Source of the DNA: Candidatus Electrothrix scaldis
GTDB taxonomy: Bacteria > Desulfobacterota > Desulfobulbia > Desulfobulbales > Desulfobulbaceae
Assembly (NCBI GenBank): GCA_033584155.1
Contig: CP138355.1
Coordinates: forward strand, 1,382,501-1,446,500
Direction of reading: 5' to 3'
DNA length: 64,000 nucleotides
A program made the position numbers and the translations under genes. Shown here one piece after another: positions 13,766-49,437 of this stretch (its first letter is position 1; the number at the start of each line of letters is the position of its first letter). Below the pieces are notes generated by a model. That model made no database searches. It was not told the DNA's origin and saw only the letters and a program-made list of their open reading frames with translations.

Positions 13766-16057
13766 TTGCTACACTCCATTCCGGCTAAGAATTTTGCTGC
13801 GCAGCTGAACATGACTCCTATGAATACCCCCCAAGACCTGACCCCCAACTCAACATCGGCGGACCAACAGTCAGAATCCAGCGGTATTGATAATATGTTT
13901 TCACAAACACTCTCAGAACTGATTGTGGAAAAGAAAGACCGTCAGGCTGATATTCTGCTCGACCAATTGACCTCCTGGTTGCATGGTGATAAGCCGCAGG
14001 TAAGGTCCGAGGCAATTAGCCATCTCACAGATACGCTGGAACTGCTCATTGCCCATCGCGAGTGGCAGCGGATGGAAAAACTTCTGCCCACAGTTTCTCA
14101 GGCACTCTCCATAGCTGCAAAGAATGATGAGGTAGTGTGGCAGATCATTACAGCTCTTTCCATCTTTGCTGCGTATCAGATTGAAATAGGGAGATATGCG
14201 CCAGCTCGTAAGGCACTGCTGATTTTCGGTGGGTACAATGCCTTACAAGTTGCAAGTGTTGATATACGTGAACAGGCGGAGCAACTTATCAGTGACCTGG
14301 CAACCAAGCCCCTTATGGAACTGTTGTTGATCGAATATTTGTATGATCGGAGTAAGGGAGAGGATGCAGGACGACTGCTTGTGCTTTTTGGTAAGACGGC
14401 AGCAGAGTTTCTGACTGAACCCCAGAGTCTCCAGCAAAGCCGGGGAAAACCCGATGCCTTACTCAAGCTTTTTGAAAATATTGGCCCGGTAGCGGAAAGT
14501 AGCCTGGGAGCCTTGTTACACCGGACAAAGGATTGGTACCTCCTGAGGAACAGTATAAAACTACTCGGTGAAATGGGCTCTTCTACTTGCTTTGCCGATA
14601 TAACCGCCTTGTTAGATCATGATGATCTTCGTGTTAAGGGGGAGGTCTTGCGGGCTGCCAGTAAGATTGAGACAAAGGAGAAAAAAGAATTTTTCCTCAA
14701 AGCCCTGGCTACAGTGCCCCGGCAGCTGAAGGAGCCTGTTGTTGCCCTGCTTGGAGATATTCCAGACAGTAGCCTGGTGGCTCCTTTAGCGGACTTGCTG
14801 GATGAGACATCCTATGTGCGGACGAAAGCCGGGTATCAGTTGCGCACCACTATTTGCAAAACTCTTGGTAAGATCGGTTCGGTAAAGGCGGTTCCTACAC
14901 TGAAAAAAGTTATTGCCGATAACGCAGAAACAGAAAAAGAGGGTGGGATTGCAAGAGAAAAATTAGTTCAGGCCGCAGAACAGGCAATTCAGTATATTAA
15001 TCACGGTGGTAAGTATAAAGCACATCGTGCTGCGGCAGATTCCCTCAATGTTCCTTTGAAGAATAATCCTGTTGCTGCACGGGAAACCAATATTGTGCAG
15101 ATTGCTATGGCTGGTGATCAGGCCAGGGCAACCACGCAGCTTTTTGATTTGATTGTGGAGTGCGTACATAATCAGGATTTCTACAATGCCGAGCGCTTGA
15201 GAGAACGGTTTAATGAAATTAACCCCAATGCATTGACCGAGATCATTCAGGCTGCGGAATTAATTGAGCAGGAAAAAAATGGGGTGCAGGTACGTGGCTA
15301 TCTGGAAATTTGGTCGAATTTACTGCGTGAACTGACAGCAGAAGAGTTCAGTGCTATCTATCACGAGTTAGAAAATCGTGAGCTACAACCTGATGAGATT
15401 TTGGTCAATCAGGGAGATAAAAATGATGAGCTCTTTTTTATAAACCACGGCATGATCAAAACTTTTTACCAGAAGAGCGGGCGTAAGGTGTATGTCAAAA
15501 GCCTCACTGGTGGAGATCTTGCGGGGGAAAATTTTTTTGACGCCTCAGTCTGGACCATCAGCATGGCTGCCCAGACAGAAAGTAAGATTTCCATTCTTAA
15601 ACGTTCCAGTTTTTCCCGTTGGCAAGAGGCTTTTCCAGGGCTTGAAGCCAAGTTGCGGGCATTTTATAATCGTTCCAATGATGTCCAGGATTTATTACTG
15701 CGTAAGGGCTTGAATCGCAGGGCCTTTGAGCGTTATCAGCTCGCGCGAAAGATAGAATTTCAGATTATTAATAACCTGGGTAATTCTATGGGGCAGCGTT
15801 TTAAGGGCCGGCTCTCGGATATTTCACGTGGCGGTCTTGCCATGAAATTTCATCTTGCGCAAAAAAAACATATTCGGGTCCTTTTTGGCCGAAAATTGCA
15901 TATCTCTATTCCTGTGGCAGGAAAACCTCCAGAGCTTAATGTCTATGGCACTGTTTTATCCATCAATCCAGCTGAGGGAGAGGGGAGCGAGTATAAACTC
16001 CATTTTGTGTTTGACGCTCCAATGGAGCAAGAAGCTCTTCAGCTGGTCCTGGGGTAA
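13766..16057 (+). CDS. HEAT-repeat / cyclic-nucleotide-binding / PilZ fusion protein
   Basis: The 763-residue soluble protein has an all-helical HEAT-like region (about 60-430). It includes LLHRTKDWYLLRNSIKLLGE and LLGDIPDSSLVAPLADLLDE. A cyclic-nucleotide-binding domain follows (about 515-640; LVNQGDKNDELFFINHG, GGDLAGENFF). A C-terminal PilZ domain (about 655-760) carries both cyclic-di-GMP motifs: RAFER (RxxxR) and DISRGG (DxSxxG). It could combine two nucleotide second messengers through a protein-binding scaffold. The TTG at 13766 follows an AAGGGG-like site, and the ATG at 13811 is a plausible alternative. No enzyme domain is visible, so it is probably an adaptor or regulator. Confidence 0.88.
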   Translation: MLHSIPAKNFAAQLNMTPMNTPQDLTPNSTSADQQSESSGIDNMFSQTLSELIVEKKDRQADILLDQLTSWLHGDKPQVRSEAISHLTDTLELLIAHREWQRMEKLLPTVSQALSIAAKNDEVVWQIITALSIFAAYQIEIGRYAPARKALLIFGGYNALQVASVDIREQAEQLISDLATKPLMELLLIEYLYDRSKGEDAGRLLVLFGKTAAEFLTEPQSLQQSRGKPDALLKLFENIGPVAESSLGALLHRTKDWYLLRNSIKLLGEMGSSTCFADITALLDHDDLRVKGEVLRAASKIETKEKKEFFLKALATVPRQLKEPVVALLGDIPDSSLVAPLADLLDETSYVRTKAGYQLRTTICKTLGKIGSVKAVPTLKKVIADNAETEKEGGIAREKLVQAAEQAIQYINHGGKYKAHRAAADSLNVPLKNNPVAARETNIVQIAMAGDQARATTQLFDLIVECVHNQDFYNAERLRERFNEINPNALTEIIQAAELIEQEKNGVQVRGYLEIWSNLLRELTAEEFSAIYHELENRELQPDEILVNQGDKNDELFFINHGMIKTFYQKSGRKVYVKSLTGGDLAGENFFDASVWTISMAAQTESKISILKRSSFSRWQEAFPGLEAKLRAFYNRSNDVQDLLLRKGLNRRAFERYQLARKIEFQIINNLGNSMGQRFKGRLSDISRGGLAMKFHLAQKKHIRVLFGRKLHISIPVAGKPPELNVYGTVLSINPAEGEGSEYKLHFVFDAPMEQEALQLVLG

Positions 16058-27144: not shown

Positions 27145-27173
27145 TTGACTTCGTTGCTTACCTTGACTACAGT
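27145..27173 (+). promoter_or_regulatory. promoter of the cobalamin-riboswitch operon
   Basis: TTGACT (27145-27150) and TACAGT (27168-27173) are separated by 17 bases. A start site near 27181 would put the 5' end of the RNA just before the riboswitch. Confidence 0.6.
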
Positions 27174-27185
27174 ATTGTCTGTTTT

Positions 27186-27352
27186 CAGGTGTCCGTTACA
27201 TATAACTATATGGTCGGATGAAAAGGGAACCCGGTGTGAATCCGGGACGGGCCCGCCGCTGTAACCGGGGACGAACCTGCATAATGTCACTGTCTGTAAC
27301 AGGCGGGAAGGCGCAGGGGAGAAAGAGCCGGAAGTCAGAAAACCTGCCTGGA
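27186..27352 (+). ncRNA. cobalamin (vitamin B12) riboswitch
   Basis: The leader RNA contains the conserved core of the adenosylcobalamin aptamer. The segment AAAAGGGAACCCGGTGTGAA starts near 27220, CCCGCCGCTGTAACCGG near 27251, and the B12-box (GAGCCGGAAGTCAGAAAACC, then TGCC) near 27325-27347. These match the Rfam cobalamin family by eye. It lies upstream of cbiK and btuCDF-like genes, all expected to be shut off when cobalamin is abundant. Confidence 0.95.
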
Positions 27353-27358
27353 AAAAAC

Positions 27359-27386
27359 GTTCAGATGCCTAGGCAAAGGTCTGAAC
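27359..27386 (+). promoter_or_regulatory. hairpin downstream of the B12 aptamer, candidate antiterminator element
   Basis: GTTCAGA (27360-27366 region) pairs with TCTGAAC (27380-27386) around a loop rich in GC. It lies between aptamer and terminator, where the expression platform must switch. Which strand of it competes with the terminator cannot be decided by eye. Confidence 0.4.
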
Positions 27387-36442: not shown

Positions 36443-36757
36443 CTACGGCTGGCCGGAAAACTGTCGGATGCGGATATCTCCTGTCGGCATGCGGGCGACG
36501 ATTTCCAGTTCTCCCCCCAGCGCATGGACAATTTTACGCAGGGTGCTGATCTGCATGTCGTCCTGCGACTCTAATTTTGACAGCGACGGTTGTCTGATAC
36601 CGAGAAGTTCTGCTACCTGCTCTTGTGTAAAGCCTGCTTCTTTGCGAATTTCACCAATAAGCATTTCTGCCATCAGCTCACGCGCTTTCAGTGTTGCACG
36701 TTTGTGAGCTTCCGGTGTCATACGTTCGCGCAATTTTTGAATTGATGTGTGTGGCAT
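36443..36757 (-). CDS. XRE-family helix-turn-helix regulator (antitoxin-like)
   Basis: The 104-residue protein has a helical N-terminus and an XRE helix-turn-helix (about 50-105). AGFTQEQVAELLGIRQPSLS and KLESQDDMQISTLRKIVHAL are its characteristic segments, and it ends in a basic tail. Such proteins are often antitoxins of HigB/RelE-type toxins. Here the partner upstream is an AbrB-like piece, not a recognisable toxin. Its ATG overlaps the stop of a 32-codon frame starting at 36855 (TGATG), so it is probably translated by coupling with what lies upstream. Confidence 0.8.
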   Translation of the reverse strand: MPHTSIQKLRERMTPEAHKRATLKARELMAEMLIGEIRKEAGFTQEQVAELLGIRQPSLSKLESQDDMQISTLRKIVHALGGELEIVARMPTGDIRIRQFSGQP

Positions 36758-37000: not shown

Positions 37001-37115
37001 GCGGCTCCTCCTGTCCTATAGGTTTGTTCAATAGTCGTAAGAAATAAGGGGTGCTTTGTCAAGAAGAGATGCTGTCTCGTCTTCTGAAACCGGTGCTGTT
37101 GGTCCTTTCTTCAGA

Positions 37116-37316
37116 AAGTCCCCAGGGACTTTGTTTTTGAACTCCCCAGGGAGTTGCACCACAACTACGTAGGGAGTTGATATTGAACTACCCTAGGAGT
37201 TTGTATGCAAGTCCCTGTGTAGTTGGATCTCAACTACACAGGTAGTTCGATTTGAACTTCCTTGGGAGTTTGAAATGAACTTACCGGGGAGTTCCTGATA
37301 AACTACGTGGTGCGTT
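37116..37316. repeat. array of nine 16-bp near-palindromes, 23-bp period, 3' of the Roco gene
   Basis: Units begin at 37116, 37140, 37163, 37186, 37209, 37232, 37255, 37278 and 37301. All are 23 bases apart except the first step (24). Most have the form AACT-N8-AGTT separated by seven-base variable spacers. Several are perfect over six or seven pairs (AACTCCC/GGGAGTT, AACTAC/GTAGTT). The first unit is AAGT...ACTT, a paired change at both ends. The last base of the array (37316) abuts the Roco stop codon (37317-37319). Spacers are not conserved. Confidence 0.9.
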
Positions 37317-39626
37317 TTACTTTTTCTGCCTGCGCTGCTGCTTCTGCCGTTCCAGCAGCTTTGCAAATAACGCCTTCAGGTTGAGCTTGATGCCGATGAA
37401 AGGGACAGTCCATTCCGGTTCAACAGTCTCATTGAGAATTTCTGTCCATGTTGTCGTATCCTGCGGACTGGCCTTCTCCGCCACTCGTGCCAACTCCTCC
37501 TTATCCTTAGGCTGCACCAGGCCGAGCAGCTCATGCACACTGTATTTCTTGCTGGTTCCCTCTGGTATATAATAGGGGATGTCCTCCTTGGCATAGTTCA
37601 GCAGGGTCTCGTAGTCGGCAGTGCGCTGCGGGTCATCCGGCATGGGTACGCGCTCGCTGACTGTGAGCTTTTCAAAGCTGCTGTTGATGTCGGTGAGCAG
37701 GTAGCGGAGATAATGCAGATACTCCCTTGGGGTCTCGCCCTGCACCCAGATATTGATCCGCCGGGCCTCTGTATCCACCTTGACCACGGCCTGTGACCCG
37801 CTCCGCTTGTCCGCCAGCAGCACACCGGTGCGCCAGCGGGTCTCATCATGAATATCCTTATGCACCTTGACCATGAAGCGGGGAAAGACCGAGGGCGGCA
37901 GGAAGTCGGGATAATGGAGGGCGAAGCGCAGCGAGCCGTCCTTGTTGAAGGCAAGCTCCGGTTCCGGCACGGGCAGAAGCTGGGGGATGAGCACGGCCTC
38001 CTTACCCACCGGATAGCACAGCTCGAACTTCTCCATCAGGCGCATGATAAAAGGATGGGTGTCCTGGGGGCAGCAGAGTTTTTCCCCGCAACGCTGGGGC
38101 AGGAGTTTGCCTACGTCCTTCAGGGCCAGGAAGCCCTTGCTGTCCGCCATCTGCTCGGAAGTGATGATCGTATAGACCGCATTGGTGACCCAGACCGGGT
38201 TGAGCACGCTCATGGCATCAAGAATGAAGTCCCGGAAATGCACAGCCACGCCCAGGTCATGGAGGAAGTCGGCCAGGATCTCCCGGCTCTCCTCGCCGGT
38301 GATGCCTGCCTCGGCACAATAGCCCCTGTATTCCTCCACGCTGATGTAGGGCTTGTCCATCTCCTCCAGCTTGCGCTTGACCGCAAACCAGCTTGTCGGC
38401 CAGATGATACTGAGCATGTTCATCCTGGCCAGCTCGGCCAGCAGGGCTTCTTTGAACTCCGGCACCCCCTTGCCGGTCCTGCAGGAGACAGGAAAGAAGC
38501 CGCAGATGCCGGGATACTTCTCCCGCAGGAAGGGCCGGTTGACATCAAAGGAGTGGTTGCTGTCTATCTTGTTGAGCACCACCAGCACCGGCGACCTCCC
38601 GCCAAAGGTCTCCACATGCCGCAGCCAGTATTCCGTGCTCTCATCCTTGCGGCTGTCCAGCACCAGCACATAGAGGCTCCGCTTGGACAGGAAGAACTGA
38701 TGGGTGGCGTGCTGGATCTCCTGGCCGCCAAAGTCCCAGACATTGGCCCTGATCTGCTTGCCCGCACATTCCGGCTCCCAGCCCTGGATGCTGATGCCGT
38801 GGGTGGTGTCCTCGTGCTCGTCAAAAGGCTGACCGAGGAGCTGCTTGACCAGCGAGGTCTTGCCTGCGGCCCCGTCGCCGATAAGAAGCACCTTCACCTC
38901 GTTCAGTGCCTGCTGGCCTTTCTCCAGTTCAGCGAAATACTCCCGTATCACCTTGATTCCCTTGTCGGCGATCTCTATGGGCGGGCAGAGGAGAGGGTTA
39001 CCGGCAACGTAAAGCCATATCAGTTTGGTGAGCCGGCAGATTTCCGGCGGCAGGTCGCTGAGCTGGTTGTCTCTGAGGTGAAGCTCTATCAGATTCGTGA
39101 GCTGACCGATTTCCGACGGCAGACTACGCAATTGGTTGTAGCTGAGGCTAAGCCCCTTCAGGTTGGTGAGCTGGCAGATTTCCGGCGGCAGGGTAGTGAG
39201 CTGCTTGCTGCTGAGACCAAGTGCCGTCAGTTTGGTGAGCTGGCAGATTTCCAGCGGCAGTGTGGTGAACTGGTTGCGGCTGAGGTAAAACTCCGTCAGA
39301 TTGGTGAGCCGGCAGATTTCCGGCGGCAGGCTGGTGAGCTGGTTACCGCTGAGGTTAAGTCGCCATAGATTCGTGAGCTGGAACAGCTCTAGAGACAGGC
39401 TGCTTAACTGATTATCGCTAAGGTAAAGCTTTGTTAGATTGGTAAGCTGGCAGATTTCCGGTGGTAGGGCAGTGAGCTGGTTGCCTCTAAGGTCAAGCCT
39501 TGTTAGATTCGTGAGCTGGAACAACTCCGGCGGCAGGGAAGTAAGCCCCATGCTGCTCAGGTCAAGCCCAGTAGCCCCGCTTGCCTTGGCCTTCTCTATC
39601 TCCTGCAACACTTCTTCATTCGTCAT
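37317..39626 (-). CDS. Roco-family protein: leucine-rich repeats, Roc GTPase, COR domain
   Basis: I start this gene at the ATG at 39626 because AGGAGG lies seven bases upstream. The longer frame from 39665 has no ribosome binding site. The 769-residue protein has about nine leucine-rich repeats of exactly 23 residues (about 25-215, consensus LTxLxLSxNQLTxLPPEICQLTN). A Roc GTPase follows with P-loop GDGAAGKTSL, WDFGGQE switch II and VVLNKID. After that comes a COR dimerisation domain. There is no kinase or WD40 part. Bacterial Roco proteins cycle between dimer and monomer with nucleotide, and their partners are mostly unknown. Near-palindrome arrays lie at both ends of the gene. Confidence 0.92.
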   Translation of the reverse strand: MTNEEVLQEIEKAKASGATGLDLSSMGLTSLPPELFQLTNLTRLDLRGNQLTALPPEICQLTNLTKLYLSDNQLSSLSLELFQLTNLWRLNLSGNQLTSLPPEICRLTNLTEFYLSRNQFTTLPLEICQLTKLTALGLSSKQLTTLPPEICQLTNLKGLSLSYNQLRSLPSEIGQLTNLIELHLRDNQLSDLPPEICRLTKLIWLYVAGNPLLCPPIEIADKGIKVIREYFAELEKGQQALNEVKVLLIGDGAAGKTSLVKQLLGQPFDEHEDTTHGISIQGWEPECAGKQIRANVWDFGGQEIQHATHQFFLSKRSLYVLVLDSRKDESTEYWLRHVETFGGRSPVLVVLNKIDSNHSFDVNRPFLREKYPGICGFFPVSCRTGKGVPEFKEALLAELARMNMLSIIWPTSWFAVKRKLEEMDKPYISVEEYRGYCAEAGITGEESREILADFLHDLGVAVHFRDFILDAMSVLNPVWVTNAVYTIITSEQMADSKGFLALKDVGKLLPQRCGEKLCCPQDTHPFIMRLMEKFELCYPVGKEAVLIPQLLPVPEPELAFNKDGSLRFALHYPDFLPPSVFPRFMVKVHKDIHDETRWRTGVLLADKRSGSQAVVKVDTEARRINIWVQGETPREYLHYLRYLLTDINSSFEKLTVSERVPMPDDPQRTADYETLLNYAKEDIPYYIPEGTSKKYSVHELLGLVQPKDKEELARVAEKASPQDTTTWTEILNETVEPEWTVPFIGIKLNLKALFAKLLERQKQQRRQKK

Positions 39627-39667
39627 CGCCTGCCCTCCTGTGGTGGTTGTGGGTTTGTCTGGCATTC

Positions 39668-39897
39668 GGAGTCAGCATGCTGGTACGCCGGGAGTCAGCA
39701 TGCTGGTACGCCAGGAGTCAGCATGGTGACTCGGCAAATTGCACCATAGTAGAAGGACGAGTTGCACTATAGTGGTAGTCCAGGTTGAACTGTAGTGGAA
39801 CGACAAGTTGCATTATAGTGGAACTTCGGGTTGCACTACAGTGGAATGCCCGGAGTCATAGTAATGACTCCGCAGGAAGCATCCTCTAGGATACCTC
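39668..39897. repeat. array of ten 23-bp near-palindrome units, 5' of the Roco gene
   Basis: Ten consecutive 23-base units fill 39668-39897. The first three share GGAGTCAGCATGSTG, the next five are of the type GTTGCACTATAGTGGAA, the ninth is GGAGTCAT-AGTA-ATGACTCC, and the tenth contains ATCCT-CT-AGGAT. Dyad centres of units 1, 2, 3, 5 and 9 fall at 39677.5, 39700.5, 39723.5, 39769.5 and 39861.5, all multiples of 23 apart. The array lies 42 bases upstream of the Roco start codon, so it covers the promoter or 5' leader. Confidence 0.88.
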
Positions 39898-39903
39898 TGG
39901 TGG

Positions 39904-39980
39904 GTTTCCCTCAAAGCCCTTGAGGAAACTCCGCTGGAGCAGGTTCCCTGTCAGGGAATCTCCTTCCCGCAATGCGGGCA
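39904..39980. repeat. three further hairpins beyond the 23-bp array
   Basis: GTTTCCCTCAA/TTGAGGAAAC (39904-39929, one bulge), TTCCCTG-T-CAGGGAA (39944-39958) and CCCGCA-A-TGCGGG (39966-39978) follow the array. They are not on the 23-base grid, but they extend the run of dyads to about 310 bases. No gene is present up to 40,059. Confidence 0.65.
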
Positions 39981-47700: not shown

Positions 47701-49437
47701 CTATTCTCTGCTTTCGTTAAGAGTAATTTTGTCTTCCTCGCTTAAACCATACAGCTTAAAGGCTGCTCGGTTGCAAGCCGTAAGATCCCTTGAGGAACTG
47801 GCTATAATAAGCTCTTCGCGGATTGATGGGGAAACAGTATTCCACTGGGGAATCCTTATCCGTCGTAAATATTGGGCTTGAAAACGGAAGTAGCCACCAC
47901 GCATCTTTGTTGAGTATGTTGTAATGAATAATTTTGTAATATCGGAGAGCAATACGGCTTGAAGAGCTTGTAGCTCCCATTTGTCAGAAATAATATAATA
48001 TAAATTATGATGAGGATAGAGCTTTCCTGGTTCAAAAACAATATGAGCGCCACCTTTAATGTCAGGAATTAAAAGTTTAGGGCGATATGTGAGAGAAGGG
48101 TTGATACGATCAATAGTTCTATACCAGTTTGCCGGAGATTTTTTGGCACAATGTCGGTTGGCTATAGTTGTTTTATGCTGGTATAGATATTTTTTTAATT
48201 TTGGATAGGTATTGAGATTGACCAGTGTGCCGGTGCTGTCAAACGGGTTTATGATGCCATCACCTTGCCAGATGACCTGGCCGGTTTTAATATCCTTTGT
48301 TCTTGCCAGAGGGAGCTTACGATTTTTTTCTACATCAAGTGTGTCATACTTTCCTATAAAAATTTTGTCCGCACCTGTTGCTACACCGATGCCTATCTTA
48401 CAGCCTGTTTCTTCAATTGTCGGGAAACTGAGCTCCAGGCGGCGTAATAACGAGAGCATTTTATCTGTTGGGTCAAGTAACCACGGAGCATCGTTATGAA
48501 GAACATTGTGTAGTTCCTGGATCACTGAATCCTTGGGTAGGGCTGGAGCAAGGAGTTCGGCAGCCAAAGTAGATAAAGAATTTTTTTCTATTTTGGGTTT
48601 TCGGAGGATTCTTGTTGGGCCATTTCGTTGTTTGTTAATTATCGTTATAGCCGGATAGGTGCTGACATCGGATAAAAAGGCATTTGTTCCAACCATGTCT
48701 ATATATATTTTCAAATGATAGTTGCCGGATATTTTTTTTCGTAATGGGCCACCGTATTTGTTCTTCATCCAGCGATCTGCACAGATAAATCCCAGTACAC
48801 CGGAATCCTCTAACAAAGACAATGCCTTTTCGAAAAAAGGAACATAGAGGTCTGCACGATCATACATCGTTTGAAAGCGGCTTCTGTATTCCCTGAGAAG
48901 AGGGGAGGGAATGAGCTCCTGTCTCACATAAGGAGGATTCCCTATAACGAAATTAACTTGCTGGTCCAGAGGGGTGAGGAGGAAATCTCCTTGCAATAGC
49001 CAGGTGTTAGCAAGTTTGGCGGCTCGGTTATGAGATATCCCGTGGCTCGTTAGTTTCGTTATTACAGTTTCTTTTGTTGTTATGAAGCTTTGCCGATGCA
49101 GCTCTATAGCAATGAGAGAATGTTGCAACTCTTTATAGTCGTGTGATGTTGAATGGTCCTTCCATGAGGCAAGGAGACGGTCAAGTAATGGGAGAAGAAA
49201 ATCTCCGTTTCCGAAAGAAGGTTCCAGAATTCGTTTTTTAAAAAGAGGTTGATCTTCGGTGAAACCGATCAGGTCAAGTATGAAATTGGCAACTTCAGCC
49301 CGAGTATATACGGCTCCGCGAACTTCGCGGTTATTGGTTTGAGCCAGTTCTTCAAGGGCTTTTTGGGCTTCTTGAGTGACTGGCGGAACTCCAGAGTGGG
49401 TAAGTTCAAATAACGTTGTTTGGACTAAGCTGGACAT
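47701..49437 (-). CDS. type II N6-adenine DNA methyltransferase, PaeR7I-type
   Basis: The 578-residue protein is a gamma-type adenine methyltransferase. SAM-binding motif I lies in [20 protein letters not shown] near residue 69, and the catalytic NPPY in [11 protein letters not shown] near 165. A C-terminal target-recognition region contains [14 protein letters not shown] near 350 and [14 protein letters not shown] near 465. It should methylate the recognition site of the adjacent endonuclease. The start lacks a clear ribosome binding site. It follows the O-antigen ligase-like gene by 37 bases. Confidence 0.9.

Follow-up and report, generated by a model that had tools for sequence, protein, structure and literature searches.

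In phage lambda, the palindromic operators OR1-OR3 lie about 23-24 bp apart, are bound by cooperative dimers and serve autoregulation. Plasmid iterons are direct repeats at replication origins with a fixed period of about two helical turns, and CRISPR arrays consist of near-identical repeats with unique spacers of about 30 bp. Proteins of the HU/IHF family bind DNA as dimers with proline-tipped arms. REP and REPIN elements are described as small intergenic palindromes present in many copies (PMC3733652, PMC3116915). Candidatus Electrothrix scaldis GW3-3 is a cable bacterium with a closed genome of 5,089,909 bases; insertion sequences are the main repeats named for it, and the main text of the genome paper does not mention palindromes, tandem repeats, DNA-binding, histone or nucleoid (PMC10926707).

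We analysed a 64-kb stretch of this genome (the window), in which a Roco gene lies between two arrays of near-palindromes (Table 1). In the 3′ array, the first centre is at 37123.5, 24 bp from the second; between 37147.5 and 37308.5 the remaining eight centres follow one another at exactly 23 bp, in seven steps. The Roco stop codon adjoins the last unit, and two of the units pair weakly (3/8 and 4/8 pairs). These centres, together with a chain score of 14.8, confirm the first-pass annotation of nine near-palindromes, eight of them exactly 23 bp apart and touching the stop codon. On the 5′ side, ten dyads had been placed on one 23-bp grid; nine are on it, with centres from 39677.5 to 39861.5, and the tenth, at 39886.5, sits 25 bp further. 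The likely start of the Roco gene is the ATG at 39626 behind an AGGAGG (the mechanical open reading frame begins at 39665), 51.5 bp from the closest 5′-array centre. The existence of the two arrays is confirmed, and chance falls far short of them: in 100 block-shuffled windows the best 64-kb chain score had a mean of 5.6 and a maximum of 7.8, exceeded every time by the 3′ array and by the 5′ array (score 18.6). The LRR-coding repeat of the Roco gene has a period of 69 bp, or 3 x 23, which is probably a coincidence because arrays are also found without LRR genes.

Table 1. Positions of the arrays and other features in the window, and of one HU-Ig gene elsewhere in the genome.
Feature	Position	Strand	Description
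3′ array	37115..37316	.	nine 16-18 bp near-palindromes of AACTN8AGTT type; first unit AAAGTCCCCAGGGACTTT
Roco gene	37317..39626	-	LRR, Roc GTPase, COR-A, COR-B
LRR-coding repeat	39020-39537		within the Roco gene
5′ array	39669..39870	.	nine dyads on a single 23-bp grid; units 1-3 GAGTCAGCATGCTGGTAC class, units 4-8 GTTGCACTATAGTGGAAC class, unit 9 GAGTCATAGTAATGACTC
Extra palindromes	39880..39960	.	irregularly spaced, upstream of 5′ array; by eye, plus dyad 39886.5
Small HTH gene	36443-36757		HTH_37/HTH_3; between mutS and 3′ array
Cobalamin riboswitch	27170-27365	+	Rfam match, 128.5 bits
BREX PglX-like methyltransferase	47701-49437		match far under curated cut-off
Family 2B encapsulin shell protein	13766-16057		partial match, far under cut-off
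HU-Ig gene L363	G000:C1:4284317-4285384		in the same genome, outside the window; centres of its own array at 1255-1324 of L363

The period of 23 stands out even when sequence is ignored. We scanned 60 evenly spread 20-kb stretches of the E. scaldis genome (G000) plus the window, 1.26 Mb, for chains of three successive dyads with even or odd centres and at least 6/8 pairs at any period. Period 23 gave 15 three-unit chains, two of them from the window, vs a mean of 0.40 (sd 0.65, maximum 2) for periods 16-60 except 23 and 46. Period 46, the double of 23, gave six; next in the range 12-80 were periods 63 (four chains) and 70 (three). Further sequence classes appeared on the same spacing, and dyad length varied while the distance between centres held at 23. 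The shared architecture is a row of even-centred dyads, 23 bp centre to centre, with sequence free, and the earlier remark that an equal period with unrelated sequences goes beyond simple duplication is borne out.

The same architecture was observed in relatives. In genome G005, period 23 gave 8 chains vs 0.07, with two of the 20 stretches (L278, L286) placed on known arrays; we detected no period-23 chain in the sampled stretches of G007, of the same genus, or of G012 and G014, of other genera. When the gap between AACT units was left free at 3-25 bases, all 26 pairs recovered (G000, G001, G002, G003 and G005) had the 23-bp spacing, and a control search with the pattern reversed had a single match in each of G000, G004, G005, G009 and G026. 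A search for three AACT units at free spacing found 23/23 spacing in none of the 118 stretches listed, which were mostly from Bacteroidota and had other periods; two of them contained one 23-bp step. The 23/23 spacing was likewise absent from 37 viral stretches. Clear matches to the window 5′ array (E below 1e-5) occurred in 6/37 genomes, solely of this genus and genus g10. This array architecture of cable bacteria is real, and no description of it emerged from the literature that we searched.

Arrays cluster at Roco genes, as had been suspected. The eight genomes of the genus gave 41 COR-A matches, of which 30 were cut out as loci, and an array (score ≥7) was present at 12/30 vs 8/500 background tiles (Fisher 9e-12); this comparison is biased downwards by three of the eight positive tiles, which are themselves at Roco genes or a Roco remnant, and upwards by the non-independence of orthologous loci. 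Even dyads at other periods from 19 to 27 were found at 0 or 1 of the 30 loci. At five of the 23 Roco loci inspected (the window, L329, L331, L346 and L352), an AACT array begins at the base after the Roco stop codon, its first unit sometimes degenerate. The AACT class also occurs at 2.908 Mb of G000, in G005 and in G003. Most of the Roco gene is deleted in G005; in G003 it is absent from the locus and the 3′ array is retained, so arrays can outlive the Roco gene. The deletion junctions in these two genomes both fall at 39950/39951 (L278, L034), agreeing within 1 bp. Six Roco 5′ arrays had no common promoter and no common phase.

The position directly after the stop codon at five loci would suit arrays that work as hairpins near the 5′ and 3′ termini of mRNA, a role that the first-pass annotation had offered for the Roco transcript. 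It had also pointed to a double change, AAGT..ACTT for AACT..AGTT, that keeps pairing. This change is real in AAAGTCCCCAGGGACTTT; one-sided changes are present as well (AAGT..AGTT in the window 3′ array, AACT..ACTT in the G005 orthologue), and compensatory pairing was not significant in 29 distinct AACT units, where 62/116 inner pairs vs a shuffled mean of 56.1 (sd 4.5) were reached in 1135 of 10000 shuffles. A hairpin function also has to contend with a spacing that stays at 23 despite varying dyad length, with the 3′ array that G003 keeps without a Roco gene and, as described below, with the largest set of arrays, which lies upstream of predicted promoters. We consider it very improbable. 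At the Rfam gathering score, the arrays of the window were unmatched; the matches were the SSU rRNA and a cobalamin riboswitch.

Roco genes are not the only genes with such arrays. PF14848, an HU-like domain, was present in 3/20 scanned genes beside non-Roco arrays, and among 48 family-search matches in the genus, 30 of which were cut out as loci, 17/30 carried arrays vs 11/600 tiles (Fisher 2e-18); periods 18-30 other than 23 were found at 0-3 of these 30 loci. The genes encode proteins with an HU-like and an Ig domain (HU-Ig). The collection of distinct HU-Ig frames, which includes fragments and orthologues, numbered 57, and 55 had enough flank. An array (score ≥6) was found within 500 bp upstream of 39/55 and downstream of 0/55, and in 0/285 shuffled upstream regions. 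The 39 array-bearing frames form 23 clusters at 70% protein identity. The association between arrays and HU-Ig genes is held with high confidence. The earlier picture of arrays that frame a Roco gene is supported by the Roco enrichment and overlooked the HU-Ig genes, which are associated at least as strongly.

DUF4469 proteins occur in 6/8 genomes of this genus, 5/5 of genus g10 and 0/46 others in the family; across the phylum, 3/297 genomes matched, namely this one and two below cut-off. In six genomes the domain matches numbered between 7 and 18 each. No HU-Ig relatives were found in viral contigs, phages or plasmids. The E. scaldis genome has 14 near-full-length matches (one with a stop) and nine partial ones, and we found no HU-Ig remnant beside the window arrays. 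At L030 (1501-1890) a class-C array is followed by an HU-Ig remnant, more weakly so in L014, so that a portion of the arrays may be what is left of former HU-Ig loci. Genes of the TPR and NB-ARC/TPR types are repeatedly found next to HU-Ig genes and next to arrays (HU-Ig flanks, L225, L030, L031); the HU-Ig flanks held 132 frames, with nine TPR proteins among 74 scanned.

Most HU-Ig frames are 340-360 aa long and comprise an HU-like domain, an Ig domain and a C-terminal domain. PF14848, PF18291 or PF00216 matched 10/10 proteins scanned, many below the curated cut-off, and the DUF4469-type Ig domain (PF14734, E<=0.1) was found in 8/10, the exceptions being L370 and the fragment L388. An AlphaFold model of the L363 protein (pLDDT 90.7, pTM 0.62) had as its best PDB match 4fmr, the Bacteroides vulgatus protein BVU_2165, whose entry labels it putative DNA-binding (profile E 4.5e-8; Foldseek E 4e-13 over 243 columns); the rmsd of 18.1 indicates that the domains are set differently. 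HU and IHF structures matched residues 24-121 with Z of about 7-9, up to 9.0 (5eka: Z 8.7, rmsd 2.7, 85 aligned), with Foldseek E values for the HU domain of 0.004 or weaker. Prolines in the arm region of the HU-Ig alignment are near-invariant. The extra C-terminal domain of about 120 aa (pLDDT 94.4) had no confident match when compared alone with the PDB, and a new fold is not thereby shown.

A TTGACA-N17-TATAAT-like promoter (threshold ≥9/12) was predicted upstream of 38 of the 57 HU-Ig frames vs 3/165 control windows; among the 57, L409 had too little flank to examine. The array grid is locked to this promoter, of the form TTGACA-N17-TANNNT: in 17/18 paralogue clusters its distance to the -35 box downstream is 25+23k bp (Rayleigh R 0.92, p about 3e-7). 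The nearest centre is 24-26, 48-49, 72-74, 95-97 or 117 bp from the -35 box in 17 clusters, and 215 bp in one. The phase was also recovered with no choice of arrays: when dyad scores were averaged over 26 clusters, 11 of the 14 top distances (of 288) were on or next to the grid (25, 48, 49, 71, 72, 94, 95, 117, 118, 140 and 163), the other three (45, 97 and 143) being 3 bp off it. With the grid locked upstream of the promoter, HU-Ig arrays are expected to be left out of the transcript of their gene, and their place upstream of the predicted transcription start speaks for a function in DNA and against one in RNA. In none of the 18 clusters does the nearest upstream centre come closer than 24 bp to the -35 box, and for this reason we lean towards a role in activation or architecture, with low confidence as to the sign. 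Dispersed arrays mostly lack the locked promoter: 13 of 18 had no such promoter within 250 bp, and in four of the five that did, at least one was near the HU-Ig phase.

Distinct HU-Ig paralogue clusters have mostly different palindromes. For 31 proteins, the median site similarity was 0.11 at a median HU-domain identity of 0.37, and the architecture was the same throughout; what is kept between arrays is symmetry and not sequence, as the first reading had it. In 21 paralogue clusters, whose arrays had been selected for symmetry, positions 3-8 from the centre were standard pairs in 13-18 of the 21, with all four pair types represented. Site similarity tracked HU-domain identity (Pearson 0.49, 0/5000 permutations; Ig domain 0.36, C-terminal domain 0.38), a correlation confounded by the joint inheritance of gene and upstream DNA; in this comparison L384 appears mis-centred by half a period.

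These classes bear on whether the arrays are instead the operators of another regulator, such as a helix-turn-helix protein, which would control HU-Ig, Roco and further genes, with HU-Ig merely a target. A 16-18 bp palindrome at 23-24 bp centre spacing does resemble tandem helix-turn-helix operators such as OR1-OR3, and a small HTH gene, perhaps an antitoxin, is near the window 3′ array. That gene has no blastn match at the equivalent locus in G005 and G003, both of which retain the array, and with sequence classes that differ between HU-Ig clusters, this explanation would need equally many unseen regulators. This explanation is unlikely in our estimate.

Arrays away from HU-Ig genes reuse the same classes. 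In 18 hand-picked dispersed arrays, 71 of the 120 units matched some HU-Ig array (p<=0.01 vs dyad-preserving shuffles). In the window 5′ array, 7/9 units did so: the best match of units 1-3 was the array of HU-Ig gene L410, from another genus only (G053), and that of units 4-8 was the L369/L373 arrays, which belong to orthologues of L363. The window 5′ array is a mosaic of two HU-Ig classes on one 23-bp grid, and mosaics on a single grid were also seen at L209 and L349. In its architecture the 3′ AACT array does not differ from the HU-Ig arrays. Its units matched sampled HU-Ig arrays in 0/13 cases (window 3′ array and L243b) and in 1/6 at L331, as did 0/7 units of L345, and in the subset of HU-Ig flanks read in G000 we found no cognate HU-Ig gene for this class. 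In G007, three AACT units form an array at a Roco gene, and the single HU-Ig gene (PF14848 only) has no array.

Arrays of this kind could also be neutral palindromic minisatellites, in which tandem duplication fixes the 23 bp and template-switch mutation preserves symmetry. The G005 orthologue has a duplicated unit, unit number differs between orthologues, and the within-unit covariation is not significant, all of which would fit. Neutral origin sits poorly with a single period across unrelated sequences, mosaics in register, arrays confined to the upstream side of HU-Ig genes and a promoter-locked phase in paralogues with little site similarity, and we regard it as quite unlikely. In class-B orthologues the difference in conservation between core (69/80) and spacer (19/28) was marginal (p 0.046), and a comparison of four species showed the 80 bp before the class-B array to be as conserved as its cores (76/80 vs 72/80).

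The same layout before many HU-Ig genes suggests that the arrays are probably docking sites for HU-Ig proteins. We propose, with a probability of roughly 0.7, that they serve as serial operators or DNA docking sites for dimeric HU-Ig proteins; the earlier suggestion of serial sites for a dimeric DNA-binding protein is supported and gains a candidate, and the interpretation of which it was part is partly supported overall. Each palindrome would take one HU-Ig dimer, and the fixed 23-bp centre spacing would set neighbouring dimers side by side in a cooperative row. A paralogue's own palindrome is arrayed at about -61.5, -84.5, -107.5 and so on from its predicted sigma-70-type promoter, where it could act in autoregulation. 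Copies of a class also lie at other loci, including the 5′ side of the window Roco gene, where two classes share one grid. Direct binding of the arrays by HU-Ig proteins has our moderate confidence. Against this proposal count the 16/55 HU-Ig frames without an array at score ≥6, the AACT and L345 units that match no sampled HU-Ig array (save one unit at L331), the match of units 1-3 of the window 5′ array in another genus only, the arrangement in G007, the dispersed arrays that lack the locked promoter and the weak contrast in class-B conservation. HU/IHF proteins described so far are also not known to use palindromic operators.

More tentatively, and with doubts that outweigh our confidence, the HU-Ig paralogues might form a sequence-addressed chromatin system of the multicellular cable bacteria, in which each paralogue would read a private palindrome and all would share the 23-bp geometry. 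Different paralogues could then pack side by side on mosaics, and the resulting nucleoprotein row would control the paralogues as well as signalling genes such as Roco and TPR. For HU-Ig (DUF4469) proteins, the analysis suggests both where they bind and what they might do. If paralogues have diverged in binding sequence at a constant spacing, an HU-fold site code would become directly testable in vitro, and a candidate regulatory network would be at hand for cable bacteria, which are described as currently unculturable (PMC10926707).

Among known proteins, the closest are the HU-Ig (HU-HIG, DUF4469) proteins of Bacteroidota, which combine HU and Ig domains as in cable bacteria. Matches were found in 13/198 Bacteroidales genomes, and 21 of 22 were open frames of 217-329 aa; the cable-bacterial proteins add the C-terminal domain, and the upstream arrays were found in cable bacteria. 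The literature searched does not mention DUF4469, and the string 'HU-HIG' is present there, apparently not about these proteins.

Among known arrays, CRISPR differs from those described here, which have 7-bp spacers and variable repeats. Mobile palindromes scattered through a genome, such as REP/REPIN or Neisseria dRS3 elements, are likewise multicopy and intergenic, and the genome has five matches to Y1 transposases. However, none of the five lies within 10 kb of the arrays found in about one quarter of the genome, no common tetranucleotide tag is visible by eye across classes, and the arrays combine a strict period with a fixed place before the promoters of one gene family, so that we rate such an origin as extremely unlikely. 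Plasmid iterons share the tandem fixed period and are direct repeats at origins, whereas the units here are dyads. With fixed-spacing dyads beside the predicted promoter of a putative DNA-binding protein's gene, the HU-Ig arrays have the form of a tandem operator array, and the likeness to lambda OR1-OR3 extends from the palindromic sites about 23-24 bp apart to the cooperative dimers and autoregulation proposed here. Unlike lambda, the cable-bacterial arrays have up to ten or twelve sites, the protein is HU-like and not helix-turn-helix, and many paralogues with differing sequences meet in mosaics.
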